Positions 16,397 through 34,655 of a stretch of DNA of 34,655 nt are shown in pieces. The DNA comes from Nitrosovibrio sp. Nv4. Its GTDB lineage: Bacteria > Bdellovibrionota > UBA1018 > CAIMNF01. The stretch is from positions 1 to 34,655 of the forward strand of contig CALPVV020000015.1 of NCBI GenBank assembly GCA_943327105.2, written 5' to 3'. Position 1 is the stretch's first letter. Each line of letters begins with the position of its first letter. The notes beneath the pieces are model-generated. The model was given only the letters and a program-made list of their open reading frames with translations. It did not search any database and was not told the DNA's origin. The position numbers and the translations under genes are program-made.

Positions 16397-16767
16397 CCAC
16401 TTCAGACGGGCAATCGCTGGCCAGCAATGGCGGGAGGAAAGTCCGGGCTCCATAAAGTCGAGGTACCGGCTAACGGCCGGGGAGTCTTTTGTAATGAAAG
16501 ATTCACGGAAAGTGCCACAGAAAATATACCGCTTTTCGAAGCAAGGGTGAAAAGGCGAGGTAAGAGCTCACCGCTTTTCGAGCGATCGAAAAGGCACGGA
16601 AAACCCTACCTGGAGCAAGACCAAATAGGAAGGAAGAGCTGACTTTGCTCGTTATACCTTCGGGTTGGTTGCTGATGAACGATGCCAGTAATGGCACGTC
16701 TAGACGAATGATTGCCTCCATTTGCGCAAGCAGATGAAGACAGGACCCGGCTTACAGTCTGGAGTGG
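16397..16767 (+). ncRNA. rnpB: RNase P RNA (bacterial type A)
   Basis: Conserved core gaggaaagtccgggctcc (16434..) and 3' core gaagacaggacccggcttaca; termini form P1 helix ccacttcagac / gtctggagtgg; size about 370 nt. Confidence 0.95.
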
Positions 16768-18089
16768 ATTTTTTTAAATGCGTCTACCATTGCTTCCGAA
16801 TAATGAGGGAAAATGGTTCTTTCGATTTCTGGATACGCATCTTTTTGATTCGAATACTTACTAGAGACATCAAAGCAGGCATTGATCAGGCTTAAAATTT
16901 CAGCCATCGGATGCAGTTGAGTTCCGCCGGTATGGTTTGGAAAACCGGTGCGATCTTTGCGCTCATGATGCTGTCGCAAAACTTGAAGGGTGACTTGAGG
17001 GACATCAGTTTGGTGAGAAATGATGTCGGCACTCAGGATGGGGTGTCTCAAGTAATACTTGAATTCGTTTTCACTGAGGGACTCGAGTTTTCGCTCGGTT
17101 AGATTGCCGAATGGAGTGTTATAAAGAGAAATATCCTGTAATACGCTCGCAATGCCAAGGATTTCAAGTGTGGTTCTTTTTTCAAATTTAAGTTGTTGGC
17201 AAATTAGAATTGAAAGCGAGGCGCAGAAAAGTGAGCGATCGCTGGTGAGAGCCTTATTGATCAAACGAAGTAAAGACCCGTTTTCGGTATTGATGTTGTT
17301 GATCAATCGTTGAAGATCGCTAAGCAGTGTTCTTGCAAAATCCAGCACAGGGTCAGTAGGGCCGGAATTCTTAATCTTGCTGAGCAGCTGTTTTGACTTT
17401 GCCATGACTTCGGCAGTCTTCCAGCTGTCTGGAAAATCCTTGTTTTCGATCATGCCAGCCAGTGTTTCTTTAAGGGTTTTTTGCTGACGAGCAAGGAGCT
17501 CGGATTGGATATAGAGAAACTCGATTTTTTCAGCGAGATTTTCAATATATTTGTGAGCGATTAGAGCGTCTTTTTCGGCAAAAAGGCTCATTTTTCCTTC
17601 GGTATTTTGAATGTATAGATCACAGGGAAAGCGCTCACCCGAAAAAAAGTCTGAAATCGGAACCGCTGTAAAATTGAGAAGTTCTTGTTCGGGGCGAGGT
17701 TTTTTTCTTTTGATTCTAACCGGGTTAGGCGTGTTTGGCTTCAAGTTGGCAACCAGGGTCTCGTAAGACTCGGTTCCGGCAAAGTAACCTTTTATGAATG
17801 TATTGTTTTGAATTCTTTTTGCTGAATCATTATTGGTAAGAAGGGTTTTTTCGAATAGAAATACAGGTATTGCTGGACGATAATTCATTGTGATTTCAAG
17901 AAATTCAAATGTTGAAAATGAAGTATTGTCCGGACAGAGGAATATTCCTGAAATATCTTCTTCATGATTTGCAACCCAGCGAAGCGCTTCAACGAGCGAT
18001 TGGGTCACTCTCGCATTTCCGCCGGACTCTTTTGAGATCCTGTTCAAAACATCTGAATCGTGATGAATGAATACCGGATGACTGTTCAT
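16752..18089 (-). CDS. Pseudo-receiver + degenerate HD-GYP domain protein
   Basis: C-term RHPILSADII...VLRQHHERKDRTGFPNHTGGTQLHPMAEILSLINACFDV is HD-GYP-like, but the HD motif reads VLQDISLYNTPFG; N-term REC-like fold without the usual phospho-Asp context. Confidence 0.85.
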   Translation of the reverse strand: MNSHPVFIHHDSDVLNRISKESGGNARVTQSLVEALRWVANHEEDISGIFLCPDNTSFSTFEFLEITMNYRPAIPVFLFEKTLLTNNDSAKRIQNNTFIKGYFAGTESYETLVANLKPNTPNPVRIKRKKPRPEQELLNFTAVPISDFFSGERFPCDLYIQNTEGKMSLFAEKDALIAHKYIENLAEKIEFLYIQSELLARQQKTLKETLAGMIENKDFPDSWKTAEVMAKSKQLLSKIKNSGPTDPVLDFARTLLSDLQRLINNINTENGSLLRLINKALTSDRSLFCASLSILICQQLKFEKRTTLEILGIASVLQDISLYNTPFGNLTERKLESLSENEFKYYLRHPILSADIISHQTDVPQVTLQVLRQHHERKDRTGFPNHTGGTQLHPMAEILSLINACFDVSSKYSNQKDAYPEIERTIFPHYSEAMVDAFKKIHSRL

Positions 18090-18123
18090 TTAGATCTTCC
18101 CTGAATAGAATTCATTTGTTGAA

Positions 18124-19458
18124 TCAGGCAGCGGCTTTCATGTTGCTGCGAAACTGAATTCCTTTATAGGATAGCACGATCCGGTCGGAGTAGTGTCTGT
18201 AAATTTCATTCTCGTCTTCTAGTGTTTGGGGGTTTTTATCAATAATGTCATTAATCAGACTCAAGACTTCTGCCATCGGGTGTAGTTGCATTCCCCCGAT
18301 TTTTCTTGGAAAGCCGCTTCTGTCTTTGCGCTCATGATGTTGTCTGATCACTTGCAAGGTGACCGCTGGGATGCTGGTGTTTTCGGCAAGAATATCGGCG
18401 CTGAGTGTCGGATGATTGAGGTAGTACTCATTCTCTTGTGGTGTCATTTTATTGATGTCAGTTTTACTCAGGTCGCCAAAAGGCGAGTTGTAAAGTGCGA
18501 TATCTTGAAAAAAGCTTGCGAGCCCCAGTATTTCTTCTATGGCATTTTTTTCATATTTGAGTGATTTGCACATCAGAATGGAAAGGGTTGCGCAAGCAAT
18601 GTTGCGATCACAATTGTGTGCCTGTTCGATAAACCGATTTAACTTTTCTGAATCATTAATCGCCTGAAGTTGTCCAACCAGGTGGAACACCTCGCCAAGG
18701 ATTTCGTGAGAACTGCTTACTGCAGCGTCAGAAAGATTGGTTGATTGAAGGCACTGAAGTAGGGTTTTGGCTTTGTAGAGAGTTTCCGCAGCTTTCCAGG
18801 AAATTGGAAAATGACTGGAGAACACCATTTCTTTTTGTGTCTGCCTGATCTTTGTTTTGATTTCAATGATGTTAGATTCCCGGATGAAGAAATGAATCAT
18901 GCTACCGATGGCTTCAAAAAGTTTCGGTTTGATGATGCTTCCTGCGGTAGCAAAGAGGGTGAGGCTGCCGGTGTCGTCTTCAAGAAAGACGTCGAAAGCG
19001 AATATTTCGTGATGAATAAAATCGACACTAGGAACACAGACAAATCCTGGATGGTTGCTGCTTTTAACCGTTCGATTGATTGATTTAGGGGCGAGTCGAG
19101 AGGGTTTGCATCCGGTTTTTGCATTCAGTTCATCAAAGGCTTCATCACCTCGAAAGGTACGACGGATGTGGTGTTTCGCAAGTAATTCTGTTGCTTCCGG
19201 ACTGGACATTTCAGATTCGCTATCAATAAAAAAAACAGGAGTTGCTGGCCGGTGCGTTACGGCAAGCTCAAGAAACTTAAGTGCGCTGAAGCTGGGGTCG
19301 TTCGGATTCAGAAAGATTGCTTTGAAAGAATTGTTTGGGTTACTGATCAATTCTGCACCGTGAAATAATGACTCTGCGATCACCGTTTCAGATCCGCACT
19401 CCTTGCCGATTCGGTTAATAAAATGTGAATCGTTCGTAATGAACAACAAATGGCCCAT
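18124..19458 (-). CDS. Pseudo-receiver + degenerate HD-GYP domain protein (paralogue of preceding)
   Basis: C-term NHPTLSADILAENT...VIRQHHERKDRSGFPRKIGGMQLHPMAEVLSLIND; FFQDIALYNSPFG. The ORF track opens at 19530; ATG at 19458 (MGHLLFITNDSHFINRIGKECG) matches the N-terminus of the paralogue. Confidence 0.83.
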   Translation of the reverse strand: MGHLLFITNDSHFINRIGKECGSETVIAESLFHGAELISNPNNSFKAIFLNPNDPSFSALKFLELAVTHRPATPVFFIDSESEMSSPEATELLAKHHIRRTFRGDEAFDELNAKTGCKPSRLAPKSINRTVKSSNHPGFVCVPSVDFIHHEIFAFDVFLEDDTGSLTLFATAGSIIKPKLFEAIGSMIHFFIRESNIIEIKTKIRQTQKEMVFSSHFPISWKAAETLYKAKTLLQCLQSTNLSDAAVSSSHEILGEVFHLVGQLQAINDSEKLNRFIEQAHNCDRNIACATLSILMCKSLKYEKNAIEEILGLASFFQDIALYNSPFGDLSKTDINKMTPQENEYYLNHPTLSADILAENTSIPAVTLQVIRQHHERKDRSGFPRKIGGMQLHPMAEVLSLINDIIDKNPQTLEDENEIYRHYSDRIVLSYKGIQFRSNMKAAA

Positions 19459-19464
19459 GCAATT

Positions 19465-19493
19465 ATTATAGCGTCTTAATAGTTGATCATCAA
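19465..19493 (-). promoter_or_regulatory. Sigma70-type promoter for the HD-GYP-like pair
   Basis: On the minus strand TTGATG (19493..19488) - 17 nt - TATAAT (19470..19465); the ATG at 19458 begins 7 nt after the -10. Confidence 0.6.
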
Positions 19494-19567
19494 GCTCAAC
19501 AAGATTAAATGATCTTAGTTTAATATTCATTTAGTCAACATTTATCCATGGTCGTAGGGGTTAGGTC

Positions 19568-28116: not shown

Positions 28117-29412
28117 ATGGATACACCTAAGTACGGTAACAGCATGGGCAATCTGACCTGCTCTTTCTGCGGCAAGAACCAGCGTGAAGTGAAGAAACTG
28201 ATCGCGGGTCCGAGTGTTTATATTTGTGATGAATGTATTGATCTTTGTAACGATATCATTCGTGAAGAAGGTCAAAAGGCTGGAATTTCGGCATCAGGCG
28301 CTCCTTCAGCTTCTGGTGGAATTCAAAATCTTCCGAAACCCGCTGAAATCAAGTCATTCCTTGATGAGCACGTAATCGGTCAAGATAAGGCCAAACGCAT
28401 TCTTTCGGTTGCGGTTTATAACCACTACAAGCGTATTCAACACCAGGCAACCCTTAAAAAAGGTGAGAAGGGCAATGTTGAACTTGCGAAGAGTAACATT
28501 CTTCTAGTGGGTCCGACTGGTTCAGGTAAAACCCTGTTGGCCGAGTCGCTTGCACGCATCTTGAACGTACCGTTCGCAATTGCTGATGCAACTACTCTGA
28601 CTGAAGCGGGCTACGTGGGTGAAGATGTTGAGAACATCGTTCTAAACCTTCTTCAAGCGGCGGAAAACAACGTTGAAAAAGCTCAGCGCGGTATCATCTA
28701 TATCGACGAGATCGATAAGATTTCCCGCAAGAGTGAAAACCCTTCCATTACCCGTGATGTCAGCGGTGAAGGTGTTCAGCAAGCACTTTTGAAATTGATG
28801 GAAGGTACAGTGGCGAATATTCCTCCTAAGGGCGGAAGAAAGCATCCTCAACAGGAATTCATTCAAGTGGATACCCGCAATATTCTTTTCATCGTGGGTG
28901 GAGCCTTCGTAGGTCTTGATCGAATCGTTTCTCAGCGTAAAGGCAAGAAATCGATCGGAATCAGCGCAAACATCCAGTCGAAAGAAGATTCAACTCTTTC
29001 AAAATTGTTTGCTCAGTCTGAGCCTGAAGATTTGGTTCGCTTTGGTATGATTCCAGAGTTCATCGGCCGTGTTCCAGTGATTGCAACACTCGGTGAGTTG
29101 GATGAAGAAACATTGGTGAACATTTTGACTCAACCTAAAAACGCGTTGACCAAGCAGTATGCAAAACTTCTTGATTATGATGGTGTTCAACTTGAATTTG
29201 AACAAGAAGCTCTCGTTGCAATTGCTCAACAGGCAATCAAGCGTAACACTGGTGCTCGTGGACTTCGTGCAATCATCGAGCAAACCATGCTTGATGTGAT
29301 GTATGATTTGCCAAGTGATCCGACAATTCGTAAGTGCGTAGTTACTCGCGATACGATTGAAAAGGGTGAAAAGCCGGTATTGATTCACGGTGAGAAGCGC
29401 GAGACCGCTTAA
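28117..29412 (+). CDS. clpX: ATP-dependent Clp protease ATP-binding subunit ClpX
   Basis: Zn finger CSFCGKNQ...CDECIDLC; Walker [40 protein letters not shown]. Confidence 0.98.
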
Positions 29413-29433: not shown

Positions 29434-29470
29434 AAAAGGGCTGGGACCATTGGTTCCGGCCCTTTTTTGT
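29434..29470 (+). terminator. Intrinsic terminator downstream of clpX
   Basis: aaaagggc tgggacc att ggttccg gcccttttttgt: long stem (AAAAGGGC/GCCCTTTT plus inner GGGACC/GGTTCC) followed by a T run. Confidence 0.9.
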
Positions 29471-29612
29471 TGGAGTAACCTACATCGTTGGTTTCGACTG
29501 TAGGTAAAACCACACGAAATTTGATGTGCGATCGGTTTCAAGTCTACTGTATTCGTTTCGGTCTTGGCACTACGCTTGCTCATAGCCTGCCGAACCAACA
29601 GGAGGTTATGAA

Positions 29613-30569
29613 ATGAAATCGCTATTTATAAATTCATTATTCAGTCTTATTTTTTTTGCGGGAACAGCCAATGCGTATCCAGATCTGATGCAGCCGGTGG
29701 GGACGAGTGGTCTTCCATTAAAAGTCTTCAAAGATCACGATCGATCTGATCTTTTTTGGTATATTCCGATTTCGGTTGAACCGTGGACTCGTGACAGCAC
29801 CTATCGCTCGGCGCTTTTTAAAGATGAAAATAATCGAGCATTGAGTTTCGTTTTTCGTGGCCAGCCAAGTGTTGAAGAAAGCATGATTCGCGAGGTTGCC
29901 AAAGGCCAAAAGGTTCCGGTTGCAAATTTCACCCCGATTTTTCTGGAGTATTCTAAAGACTTCACCTGCCAAAACATCTACGCAGGTGATCCGAATGTCA
30001 CATGGCTTTTTCCCAACCAGATCGGAAATTATCTTGAAATGGTTCCAGTTTCCATTCGTGTGAAAAACGATCCTGAGCTAGTCAATGAGGTTTTTAATCT
30101 GATCAATGGTGGAGGTTTGGCTTGCACGGTTTCGGTTGGATTCAAGGCATATTCAATGGCTTATAAGGCACACTACAACTTTGACCTGAACCAGGTTTAT
30201 TCCCGATTTGAATCCTCTGCTCATGCAGAAGGTTTTTGGTGGGAAATTGATCTGCACACTGTTTTGCAAAGTATGAGGCAAGAGGGTGCATTCGATTTTC
30301 ACTTGGATGAAGATACAACAATACCTACCAGTGTATTGGATCAAAAAATGGCGGCGGCATTTGAAGATCTTGAACGTAATGTGATTACGCTTTTGTTTAC
30401 GCCGGCAATGAAACTTCCAAACGGAAGCCTACCAGATCGAGGTAAAGCATTCAGTCTACGCGCTGATTACATCCGTTCAGAGCAAAACTCCCACTTCCTG
30501 TTAAAACTTTCTTCCGACAAGGTAACCGTTAAAAACAGCCAAATTGGAATCCGTTTGGGGGTTAAATAA
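29613..30569 (+). CDS. Exported protein of unknown function, cassette gene 1
   Basis: 318 aa; signal peptide MKSLFINSLFSLIFFAGTANA; consensus-strength aggagg RBS upstream; motif SDLFWYIPISV. Confidence 0.8.
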   Translation: MKSLFINSLFSLIFFAGTANAYPDLMQPVGTSGLPLKVFKDHDRSDLFWYIPISVEPWTRDSTYRSALFKDENNRALSFVFRGQPSVEESMIREVAKGQKVPVANFTPIFLEYSKDFTCQNIYAGDPNVTWLFPNQIGNYLEMVPVSIRVKNDPELVNEVFNLINGGGLACTVSVGFKAYSMAYKAHYNFDLNQVYSRFESSAHAEGFWWEIDLHTVLQSMRQEGAFDFHLDEDTTIPTSVLDQKMAAAFEDLERNVITLLFTPAMKLPNGSLPDRGKAFSLRADYIRSEQNSHFLLKLSSDKVTVKNSQIGIRLGVK

Positions 30570-30570
30570 T

Positions 30571-31470
30571 ATGAAGATCAGTCAATTGTTTCTGATTCTT
30601 TTCATGAGCTCGATTCCAACTATTGGGTTCGCTCAAGTGCCGGTTGGATTCAACCCTCCCGAGTTGAATGATGCTTTCAATGTTGGCCGAGTGGTGGTGT
30701 TTCCAACGGTAAAACATACGGTCTGGTATTCTCCAACGGCGTTTTCCTCTGAATTTAAATGTTTCAGCGGAACTTCTTCGAAGGTGTGTGCTTTAAAAGT
30801 TTTTAATTATTTATCAGATGAGGAATTCAATTCACTAAAAAAAATTCCGTCGTCAGACCAATCAATGACTTATTTCCGAGACATCGAGGTAGGTGTGGTC
30901 AGTGAAATTGATGAACAGATGACTGTGCCTGACGCATTACAAAGCACTCCACCAATGTTGATGAAGACATTGGCTATGAGTAATGATTTTCAATATGCGC
31001 AAGCGATGTCACGAGTGAGTGGAACTGATGCTTATCGATTGCAGCTTCAATATGAAAACGAAGGGTTGGGTTTCTTCCGTAGTACTTTTCGTGTTAGCGG
31101 TGAATGGACAGAAGATTATATTTCTATAGATAACACATCGAAAATGGTCTCAGTTTTAAAAGAGTTGTCTGTTGAACCGAGGAGTTTGCCGGAGATTCGT
31201 AAAAAAATCATTCAGGCGATCAAGGCAAGTCCTATGAAGTTGAAGAATTTTTCGAATGAAGAAGCCGTGATTCTGGCTTATCGCCAGATTGTGGTGAAAA
31301 TGCTTGGCAAGAAGGGTGACGGTAGATACGTCGTTTCTGCCGGTGAGATCGACAAGATCGGTTCGAGTTTCCTCGTGGTAAATGAAAGTCAACCCATGGC
31401 GCTGAAGTGTACAGCTGAGTTGGTTCTCAAAAAAGGTGCGGCAGCTGTCACGCGATGTGAAAAGGAGTAG
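30571..31470 (+). CDS. Exported protein of unknown function, cassette gene 2
   Basis: ATG 30571 right after the TAA of gene 1; signal peptide MKISQLFLILFMSSIPTIGFAQ; motif VKHTVWYSPTAF. The ORF track opens at 30544. Confidence 0.8.
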   Translation: MKISQLFLILFMSSIPTIGFAQVPVGFNPPELNDAFNVGRVVVFPTVKHTVWYSPTAFSSEFKCFSGTSSKVCALKVFNYLSDEEFNSLKKIPSSDQSMTYFRDIEVGVVSEIDEQMTVPDALQSTPPMLMKTLAMSNDFQYAQAMSRVSGTDAYRLQLQYENEGLGFFRSTFRVSGEWTEDYISIDNTSKMVSVLKELSVEPRSLPEIRKKIIQAIKASPMKLKNFSNEEAVILAYRQIVVKMLGKKGDGRYVVSAGEIDKIGSSFLVVNESQPMALKCTAELVLKKGAAAVTRCEKE

Positions 31471-31473
31471 TCG

Positions 31474-31806
31474 ATGAAAAGGCGGATTTGGAAGTCTTTA
31501 TTATTGATGCTTATCACGATTGCATCTGGATGCGGAAACGATACAGAACACTCTACAGCGCAGGATTCGAAGTCTGAAGATGATGTTTGGATACAATGTA
31601 AATCTCGGTTTGAGGCAATATCTTGTCTTCGCTCATTAAGTGACGAAAAAAAGAAGCAATTGATGGGCACTTTCAAGGCTTATGATCAAGTGGGTGAGTG
31701 GCCAATCGAACTGATGGATTCCTCATCGTTTGTTCGACGCTATCAAATCACTGCAAATCAACGAAAATGTATAGAAAATACAATGTGTAGAAGGGTTTCG
31801 AAATGA
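31474..31806 (+). CDS. Putative small lipoprotein, cassette gene 3
   Basis: 110 aa; MKRRIWKSLLLMLITIASGC resembles a lipoprotein signal peptide; ATGA overlap with gene 4. Confidence 0.7.
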   Translation: MKRRIWKSLLLMLITIASGCGNDTEHSTAQDSKSEDDVWIQCKSRFEAISCLRSLSDEKKKQLMGTFKAYDQVGEWPIELMDSSSFVRRYQITANQRKCIENTMCRRVSK

Positions 31807-32534
31807 AGTGGTTTATTGGATTAGGATTATTGTTTACTCAAGTGGTCATGGCGCAAGTCAATTTGGATCAACCAATTACTACCGGCCGAAGTGATAAGTT
31901 GTTCATCTCTACGGAAGATCCGACGGTGGCTTATTATTTTCCGGTGGCTTTGGTTCGCCAGAATGATGCTGTTTTTTTAGACCGAGATCAAAATTCAGCT
32001 GTTGCAACCTTCAATGCGTCTTTTTCACCGACAGATTTGTCGAGGGTCACTCAGGAGTTGCTGAATTCGGATCATGCAAAAATGAAAATCCGGCTGTTTA
32101 GGCCGCTTTCCTATCAGGTTGAGCCAGGCGTCGATATCTCACCGTATTTTCGTCCTAGTATCACAATTATGAATGACCTGAACTTCGACGGCAGTACACA
32201 GTTTTCATTGATCGTTGATTCAAGACACCGACTGTTTCGTAAGAAATCTACTGGGTTGGAGTTATTCAATACACTTTTTGGTGATACCGATGCCGATAAC
32301 GTTGCGATCATCCGGTATGAGATGGCAGCTCAATCACTCGGCCAGCCAGTCCGATTAAGAACGGCTGTTTCGGTGCTTGTAGGAAAAGCAAGAAGCTCAA
32401 ATGCCGTGCGCGCGCAAGAGTCTACCGGTTTTATGGTTGGGGGTAATGCTCCTGTAATCATGGAAGATTCGATGACCGGTTGTTGGAATCGAGTAGAGGT
32501 TGGTCAGTTTTGTATTAAGAAAGTGGAAAACTAA
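31803..32534 (+). CDS. Exported protein of unknown function, cassette gene 4
   Basis: 243 aa; signal peptide MKWFIGLGLLFTQVVMAQ; motif DPTVAYYFPVAL, similar placement to genes 1 and 2. Confidence 0.8.
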   Translation: MKWFIGLGLLFTQVVMAQVNLDQPITTGRSDKLFISTEDPTVAYYFPVALVRQNDAVFLDRDQNSAVATFNASFSPTDLSRVTQELLNSDHAKMKIRLFRPLSYQVEPGVDISPYFRPSITIMNDLNFDGSTQFSLIVDSRHRLFRKKSTGLELFNTLFGDTDADNVAIIRYEMAAQSLGQPVRLRTAVSVLVGKARSSNAVRAQESTGFMVGGNAPVIMEDSMTGCWNRVEVGQFCIKKVEN

Positions 32535-32597
32535 TTTGAAGATCAGTTTTCAGTTACTTCGATTTAACCGAGCAGAATTCTGGGGAATTTTTGCCCG

Positions 32598-32624
32598 ACG
32601 TCAAAGAAGTGACGTGTTTTTTTT
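32598..32624 (+). terminator. Intrinsic terminator downstream of exported-protein cassette
   Basis: acgtca aagaag tgacgt g tttttttt: 6-bp perfect stem followed by 8 T. Confidence 0.75.
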
Positions 32625-32625
32625 G

Positions 32626-32647
32626 TTGTAAAAATATATTTTTACAA
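32626..32647. promoter_or_regulatory. Perfect 22-bp palindrome upstream of lon
   Basis: TTGTAAAAATA|TATTTTTACAA, exact self-complementarity, 54 bp before the lon start codon. Confidence 0.6.
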
Positions 32648-32701: not shown

Positions 32702-34655
32702 ATGAGCAAGCCCAGCAAAACAGAAAAAATGGTCGTACCAGTCCTCCCGCTTCGTGAGGTAATCGTGTTTCCACACATGGTGGTGCCTCTTTTCGTAGGA
32801 AGAGAGAAATCCATCCATGCACTCGAGGAGTGTGTGGAAAAGAAAAAGGAACTGTTTCTCGTTGCACAAAAACAAGCAACAACAGTGAACCCTACCGATA
32901 AGGATATTTATCAAATCGGTACTCTTGGGACCATTCTTCAGATTCTTCGCCTTCCGGATAATACTGTTAAGGTTTTGATCGAAGGTAAGCGTCGCGCAAA
33001 AATGATCAAGTTCATCGACGGCGAACAAATGGTTGAAGCCGAAGTTGAAGTGGTGAATGAAGCGGCTGACAAAGTGAATGTTGAAACAGAAGCACTGGTT
33101 CGTTCACTGAAAGCTACTTTTGAAAATTACGTAAAACTGAACAAACGCATCCCGCCAGAGATGCTCATGAGCGTGAATGGAATCGAAGACCCTTCTCGCC
33201 TTGGTGATGTGGTTGTGGCTCACTTGAATCTTCGTTTTGAAGATAAACAAGGTGTGCTTGAGATTACTGACCCGATGAAGCGACTTGAGCGCTTGCTTGA
33301 GTTAATGCAAGGCGAGATCGAGATTCTTCAAGTTGAACGTCGCATTCGTACCCGCGTGAAGAAGCAGATGGAAAAGTCCCAAAAGGAATACTATCTGAAC
33401 GAGCAGATGCAGGCGATTCAGAAAGAACTTGGCGAGAAGGATGAATTCAAAGCCGAGATTCTTGCGATTGAAAAGCAGATCAAATCCAAGCCGATGAGCA
33501 AAGAGGCTAAGGAAAAAGCGATCAAAGAATTGAAGAAGTTGAAAATGATGTCACCAATGAGCGCGGAAGCGACAGTGGTGCGCAACTATATCGACTGGCT
33601 CATTACTCTTCCTTGGGGCGAATTCACTGAAGACAGTCATGACCTGAAGGTTGCTGAAGATGTCTTGAATGAAGATCACTACGGTCTTGATGAAGTGAAA
33701 GAGCGTTTGCTTGAGTATCTTGCGGTTCGTACCCTGACTGAGAACTCCAAAGGGCAAATCATTTGTTTCCTTGGGCCTCCAGGCGTAGGTAAGACTTCAT
33801 TGGCTAAATCAATTGCAAAAGCACTCAACAAGAAGTTCGTCAGAGCTTCCATGGGTGGGGTGAGAGATGAAGCTGAGATCCGCGGTCACCGTCGTACCTA
33901 TGTCGGCGCGCTTCCAGGTAAAGTGATTCAATCGCTCAAGAAAGCTGGTTCTTCGAACCCGGTATTCTTGCTCGATGAAGTCGATAAGATGAGCATGGAC
34001 TTCCGTGGTGACCCTTCTTCAGCGTTGCTTGAAGTATTGGACCCGGAACAGAATGCGACTTTCGGCGACCACTATCTTGAAGTTGATTATGACCTTTCAA
34101 AAGTCATGTTCGTGTTGACGGCGAACTCCTTGAGTGGGGTACCTCGTCCGTTGCTTGACCGTATGGAAGTGATCACGATCTCTGGTTACACCGATATCGA
34201 GAAATTCAACATCGCGAGAAAATACCTTCTTCCGAAACAGATGGAACTTCATGGTTTGAAGGTTGAAGACATTTCTGTCGATGATGAAGCCCTCAAGAAC
34301 CTTGCTGCGCTTTACACTCGTGAAGCCGGCGTGCGTAACCTTGAACGCATCATTTCTACCGTTTGCCGTAAGGTAGCGAAGAAATTAGTCGATGGACGCA
34401 CTGAAGCTGCAAATGCGAAAAAACCAGCTCCTAAAGGTGCGATTCGTGTGAAAGCTGAAGATCTTGAAGACATGCTTGGTGCTCCACGCATTCCGAACAA
34501 GCTCGAAGCCAACAACGAAGTGGGTCTGACCAATGGTCTTGCTTACACCGAAATGGGCGGCGAAATGCTTCAAATCGAAGTGTCGGTTGTTCCAGGTAAA
34601 GGTGCAGTGAAGATCACGGGTAAACTCGGTGATGTGATGCAAGAGTCGGCTTCAA
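32702..34655 (+). CDS. lon: ATP-dependent protease Lon (C-terminus runs off window)
   Basis: Manual translation from ATG 32702 (ggaggag-type RBS ggaaggagc): [38 protein letters not shown]...; Walker [42 protein letters not shown]. Open to the window end, hence absent from the ORF track. Confidence 0.97.

Follow-up and report, generated by a model that had tools for sequence, protein, structure and literature searches.

The four genes considered here, A to D, all lie on the plus strand between clpX and lon in a stretch of 34,655 nucleotides (hereafter the window) that is part of a 2.3-Mb draft genome; the identities of ClpP, ClpX and Lon were confirmed by Pfam, and the coordinates of all features are collected in Table 1. 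Genes A and B are separated by 1 nt (30569 to 30571) and genes B and C by 3 nt (31470 to 31474), and C and D overlap in the ATGA at 31803-31806; open reading frames, spacing and strand match a preliminary description of this DNA, which had reported four tightly packed plus-strand genes. Elsewhere in the window, on the minus strand at 16752-19530, two adjacent paralogous proteins of 445 and 468 aa resemble by eye HD-GYP-type proteins and would represent a tandem duplication.

Table 1. Features of the A-B-C-D block and its flanks (positions in the window)
Feature	Position	Strand	Remarks
clpX	28117..29412	+	left flank, outside the module; Pfam
Intrinsic terminator, upstream boundary	29434..29470	+	-24.1 kcal/mol, z -5.6
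Left copy of 10-bp direct repeat TTTTTTGTTG	29463..29472	+	left homology breakpoint
Possible hairpin CCTACA...TGTAGG in the leader, 5' of gene A	29478..29505	+	-10.7 kcal/mol, z -2.3
Gene A	29613-30569	+	318 aa; predicted Sec-type signal peptide, residues ~1-21
Gene B	30571-31470	+	299 aa; predicted Sec-type signal peptide; four conserved Cys in type I
Gene C	31474-31806	+	110 aa; predicted lipoprotein, lipobox Cys20
Gene D	31803-32534	+	243 aa; predicted Sec-type signal peptide; Cys227/Cys237
Downstream terminator-like hairpin, then T8	32598..32624	+	6-bp stem, -6.9 kcal/mol, z -1.4
Right copy of 10-bp direct repeat TTTTTTGTTG	32619..32628	+	right breakpoint, where homology with the empty site resumes
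lon	32702..34655	+	right flank, outside the module; runs off the contig

In the nearest genome, G005, whose ClpX and Lon are 90% and 96% identical to those of the window, the stretch between clpX and lon is about 160 nt long and contains a strong terminator and no cassette, and more distant relatives also show clpX beside lon without it. The homology between the window and G005 ends within the left terminator, in its T-tract (CCC TTTTTTGTTG GAG), and picks up again in that of the right one (TTTTTTTTGTTGTAAAAATATATTTT); the 34.7-kb window has exactly two copies of the 10-mer TTTTTTGTTG (0.54 expected), one at each breakpoint. Since clpX and lon are adjacent in G005 and the homology breaks at the bounding 10-bp repeat, the block is an insertion, and its simplest history would be that it entered the terminator of clpX, this 10-mer having either been duplicated in the process or provided microhomology. 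The alternative, that recombination between the repeats removed the block from G005, is less parsimonious, though possible, because other relatives also lack the block at the clpX-lon site. The GC content and codon use of the cassette are close to those of the chromosome and thus give no compositional sign of recent transfer.

The upstream terminator folds better than any of its shuffled versions (0 of 200 shuffles fold as well) and, since the empty site of G005 has a strong terminator at the equivalent position, it is clpX's own and not the cassette's. The downstream hairpin is modest, 21 of 200 shuffles folding as well; thus, of the strong terminators that the preliminary description had placed at both ends, the left one stands and the right one was overstated. 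The boundaries it had drawn, 29471-32624, fall almost precisely on the points where homology breaks, at 29463-29472 and 32619-32628, and its proposal that the block had settled between two housekeeping protease genes is borne out by the empty site in the nearest genome and by the unrelated places at which the other copies are found. The possible hairpin at 29478-29505 could either belong to the leader as an element of its own or be left over from the insertion.

A, B and D each start with a hydrophobic N-terminus that has a basic end and an AxA-like site, and C carries a lipobox (...IASGC) whose Cys20 is invariant in 18 of 18 homologues; an export signal of the Sec type on A, B and D and of the lipoprotein type on C, as proposed earlier, is therefore found again, the signal peptides being judged by simple rules and not by a trained predictor. 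The predicted signal peptide II of C, with its lipobox Cys, supports the assignment of this protein as a bacterial lipoprotein. The C-terminal Cys pair of C (C99/C105) is likewise invariant in 18 of 18 homologues, and each mature protein has paired conserved cysteines whose positions differ between the two types of cassette distinguished below. In A these are Cys119/Cys171, conserved in full-length type I members, versus residues ~189/317 in type II; B has four conserved cysteines in type I versus two in type II; and the pair of D is C-terminal in type I versus mid-protein in type II. Such pairs fit disulfides in an oxidising compartment, and export, lipidation and disulfide formation are supported by sequence; the envelope location of A to D is a prediction from the signal sequences, the lipobox and the paired cysteines. 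No pattern of conserved catalytic residues was seen.

A and D are homologous (hhalign probability of 99.6% over 183 columns), the common domain corresponding to the N-terminal ~165 residues of mature A; the D profile matches A in many carriers, including the window's own A at 2.3e-5. In B, the order of motifs is the same as in D, although a D-like domain in this protein is unproven, the hhalign probability against D being just 56%. AlphaFold models were obtained for the A protein of the window (pLDDT 72) and for a type II A protein (L081; pLDDT 76). The type II model has two long beta-hairpins, at residues 199-247 and 287-320, with middling confidence in these parts, whereas residues ~199-247 form helices in the model of the window protein; because of this disagreement, no mechanism is to be read from the models.

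Comparisons with databases of known families gave nothing usable for the four window proteins in Pfam, NCBIfam, PADLOC or PHROGs; for A, B and D the Pfam scans covered as many as 19 members per protein, and NCBIfam was also run on members of A, while C was scanned as the window protein only. No PADLOC component was matched, the best value being 0.017, on the signal-peptide region of C, and the profile scans found no NTPase, EAD or effector-enzyme domain in A to D. Searches of PDB by sequence and, with both A models, by fold returned nothing at E<=0.001; the secretin fold matches of the type II model were insignificant and probably reflect just the long beta-hairpins. Rfam had no match in the cassette, no relatives were found in scans of viral contigs or by tblastn against phages, and the literature consulted contained no description of an A-B-C-D operon. 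The earlier statement that no known family could be recognised for any of the four genes has thus withstood profile searches, which place none of them.

A single-sequence search with A over the first 91 genomes found homologues in four other genomes, among them G006 (3.3e-90), G050 (1.6e-82) and G010 (4.5e-32), and a profile search covered 370 genomes of the phylum, in which homologues of B and D were found by profiles that include the window sequence and those of C were recognised by alignment of the lipobox and the Cys pair. B is present in 24 of the 370 genomes (~6%), and all 24 also have A and D (hypergeometric P ~8e-37, phylogeny being ignored in this estimate); among the 370 genomes there is none with B and without A and D. 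Full cassettes occur in several families of the phylum, at unrelated sites, and the gene order is A-B-C-D in every cassette read intact. The co-conservation proposed as a check in the preliminary description is therefore strict. The one clear exception is G006, which has an A protein 53% identical to that of the window and no B, C or D, and which may indicate either that A can stand alone or that this A is a remnant. In G003 and G242 the copies are interrupted by stop codons or frameshifts. Together these data show that A-B-C-D is a true unit, and the block in the window is one instance of an accessory operon that occurs across the phylum and is distantly related to genes outside it.

The neighbours of the cassette vary from locus to locus: an M64 peptidase in G010 (by Pfam) and clpX and lon in the window and, as read from sequence by eye, response regulators of the sigma-54 type in G178, G187 and G202, genes resembling VirB2 in G160 and cytochrome genes in G153 and G156. 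In G010, the M64 (IgA-type) peptidase gene lies directly upstream of a type I cassette (L009, contig C11, 8290-9921). Other arrangements of related genes were also noted. In G006, a divergent A homologue is the first protein of a three-gene exported cluster (395, 436 and 356 aa; L013, contig C198, 871-4421), another multi-paralogue version within the genus of the window. In another family of the phylum, a tandem exported pair (358 aa and an open 216 aa) carries an A/D-like motif (L139, G087, contig C62, 1474-3200), and two further loci (L017, 1492-3162, and L018, 1378-3489) encode larger exported proteins of 556 and 703 aa that are related to A in their N-terminal part only, the latter with a long Gly/Tyr-rich repeat tract.

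In the trees of all three of A, B and D, the same two types separate at 100/100 support, and the split cuts across host families; these genes have been inherited together. Type I comprises the window and G010 (both f1), G050 (f2) and G247 (f13), to which the trees of B and D add G293 (f26), and type II comprises all other carriers. One genus, g115, has both types, with type II in G232, G234 and G241 and a decayed type I copy in G242, the latter assigned to its type by similarity. Within the genus of the window, ClpX is at least 84% identical versus only 27-53% for A. Since the trees cut across families and A has diverged far more than ClpX, the best explanation of these patterns is that the set moves horizontally as a whole and diverges fast. 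Purifying selection acts on A and B in the one measurable pair, G156/G155 (dN/dS of ~0.11 for A and ~0.16 for B, with dS near saturation). The decay in G003 and G242, together with the absence from most relatives, fits a dispensable function that is gained and lost.

Outside the phylum, the survey covered records of plasmids and phages, contigs of viruses and one scan of genomes by pattern. In a scan of genome contigs, the only named matches were two 'Oligoflexia bacterium' MAGs. Among the plasmids, tblastn pointed to Ruegeria sp. YS9 (E 9e-6) and Paracoccus (1e-3), and relatives of A and D form clusters of paralogues on plasmids of Ruegeria sp. YS9 (NZ_CP102414), Paracoccus SMMA_5_TC (NZ_CP102356) and Pararhizobium qamdonense (NZ_CP119567). 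The motif of the A/D domain is common to these clusters (..vtlYpDh.dP..fYyfPn..., followed by ..LTp.Ga..... and then ..VDw.rvY..f...), and no Pfam model covers the domain. In hhalign, the Alphaproteobacterial family matches type II A with a probability of 99.8%, type I A with 98.2% and type II D with 98.4%, B serving as an internal negative at 0.2%. With a profile built from the Alphaproteobacterial proteins alone, type II A is recovered at 3e-21, and type I A at 1.7e-12 in G050 and at 5.3e-10 in G247, but the window's own A is not matched at E<=0.001. Profile comparison thus supports common descent of A, D and the plasmid paralogues. The plasmid proteins have no functional name in their records, apart from a Ruegeria member named for its peptidoglycan-binding domain.

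The Ruegeria run of exported paralogues starts directly after a MobQ relaxase gene; the cluster (L148, 7992-14254) also lies near AbiE toxin-antitoxin genes. The Paracoccus paralogues adjoin genes for an EAD1 protein, a PLD protein and a trypsin-like peptidase and one for a protein predicted to bind ATP, and this large cluster (L151, 3476-26865), in which a tyrosinase gene is also found, looks like an undescribed conflict-type locus.

With about as much confidence as doubt, the explanation favoured here is that the four genes form a mobile accessory operon that builds an exported multi-subunit assembly of the envelope. A, B and D would be exported by Sec and acquire their disulfides in the periplasm; they may assemble, through mutual binding, by the repeated beta-rich domain common to A and D and perhaps present in B, and the small lipoprotein C would tether the complex to the outer membrane. 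The exported Ruegeria cluster, with its peptidoglycan-binding member, speaks for such an assembly. In the lineage of the window, the block would have entered the T-tract of the clpX terminator and would be functionally unconnected to clpX and lon. The autonomous envelope or periplasmic module of the preliminary description survives both the profile searches and the comparison of co-conservation, its envelope location being predicted. What such an assembly serves is addressed with more reserve: the sporadic presence, the transfer of the whole set, the decay in some lineages and the fast divergence suggest, tentatively, an interaction with other organisms (competitors, prey, hosts or phages) and not a housekeeping role.

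Several other readings deserve consideration. The operon would also agree in its features (small, sporadic, horizontally moving, rapidly diverging and with a short lipoprotein) with a secreted antibacterial toxin cassette, in which A and/or D would be released and inserted into the membrane of a target by long beta-hairpins such as the two in the type II A model, and in which lipoprotein C (or B) would protect the producer. Nevertheless, the model of the window protein places helices in the corresponding stretch, where the confidence of either model is middling, toxin, pore and immunity families are unmatched and the PDB fold matches insignificant, and C, although fast-evolving, is found in every intact cassette with no evidence of specific protection; this reading, including the protective role of C or B, is considered unlikely. 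Equally unlikely is that the operon represents an exported branch of an immunity or conflict superfamily, with the A/D domain as a sensor or effector-recognition module, a part that its cytoplasmic relatives next to STAND ATPase, EAD1 and trypsin-like genes would also play. The runs of A-domain paralogues on the Paracoccus and Pararhizobium plasmids, the ATP-binding, EAD1, trypsin-like peptidase and PLD genes beside the Paracoccus run and the detection of type II A at 3e-21 by a profile from the plasmid paralogues alone speak in its favour, but this is one neighbourhood only, the Pararhizobium and Ruegeria clusters are without those partners in the stretches read, and no NTPase, protease or nuclease is encoded by the operon of Bdellovibrionota.

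The position between clpX and lon might suggest an accessory of protein quality control or envelope stress that is functionally tied to these two genes; however, all other copies lie elsewhere, the relatives with clpX beside lon have no cassette, and a strong terminator separates the block from clpX and a modest one from lon, so that neighbourhood comparison leads to the rejection of this tie, which is very improbable. Finally, the lack of a known family for any of the four could be expected of a chance run of unrelated exported genes or of spurious reading frames, but strict co-occurrence and order across many lineages, conserved cysteines and purifying selection are hardly compatible with such an origin; co-conservation refutes it, and its probability is close to nil.

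Returning to the operon as a mobile envelope assembly, the sequence comparisons indicate that A-B-C-D is a real, undescribed accessory system, since the four genes recur together in order and match no named family; its newness lies in matching no described kind by sequence or fold, and a new mechanism is not thereby claimed. A compact, strictly co-inherited, mobile module in the phylum of the predatory Bdellovibrio is a concrete candidate for a surface system of a new kind, and its small size would allow deletion or transplant in laboratory relatives of Bdellovibrio. It would also link an unnamed superfamily, found on Alphaproteobacterial plasmids as well, to export and to peptidoglycan or outer-membrane anchoring. 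More speculatively, and with doubts prevailing, the operon may be the exported form of an undescribed superfamily of repeated paralogous subunits used in inter-organism conflict, acting anywhere from the cytoplasm, where STAND, EAD and trypsin would be its partners, to the surface of the cell, and present in a number of bacterial phyla and perhaps in giant viruses; in Bdellovibrionota it would be a lipoprotein-anchored surface machine affecting encounters with prey, competitors or phages.

Among described systems, lineage-specific families of the phylum have been treated in PMC11656739, which, in the part consulted, deals with peptidoglycan enzymes. Four closely related type II A proteins weakly match the HMM of BREX BrxC (NF033441, PF25791), with 3e-5 and 22.5 bits at best; this resemblance is regarded as spurious, the cut-off being 400 bits and the match disappearing in other members and in the window's A, and BrxC is a P-loop protein, whereas A is predicted to be exported and matched no P-loop family. 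The sole significant structural match of the A models is an uncharacterised protein of Medusavirus stheno T3, a virus of amoebae (A0A7S7YF07; Foldseek E 1.5e-6 and probability 1.0 over 182 columns against the type II A model), with a TM-score of 0.33 to what is itself a predicted structure. NTP-dependent assemblies of the EAD/STAND/trypsin type have been described as conflict systems (PMC7159879); although the window operon is without their defining parts, such genes stand beside A-domain relatives in Paracoccus, and the possible link of the A/D domain to conflict systems comes from this one plasmid neighbourhood, whose paralogues have no signal peptides. The closest comparison is with the Alphaproteobacterial plasmid clusters themselves. 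Their paralogues are mostly longer and are accompanied by no recognised B or C, and those of Paracoccus and Pararhizobium lack the signal peptides that are predicted for A to D; like the operon, however, all consist of several paralogues in tandem, and the Ruegeria cluster is also exported, one member carrying an added peptidoglycan-binding domain.
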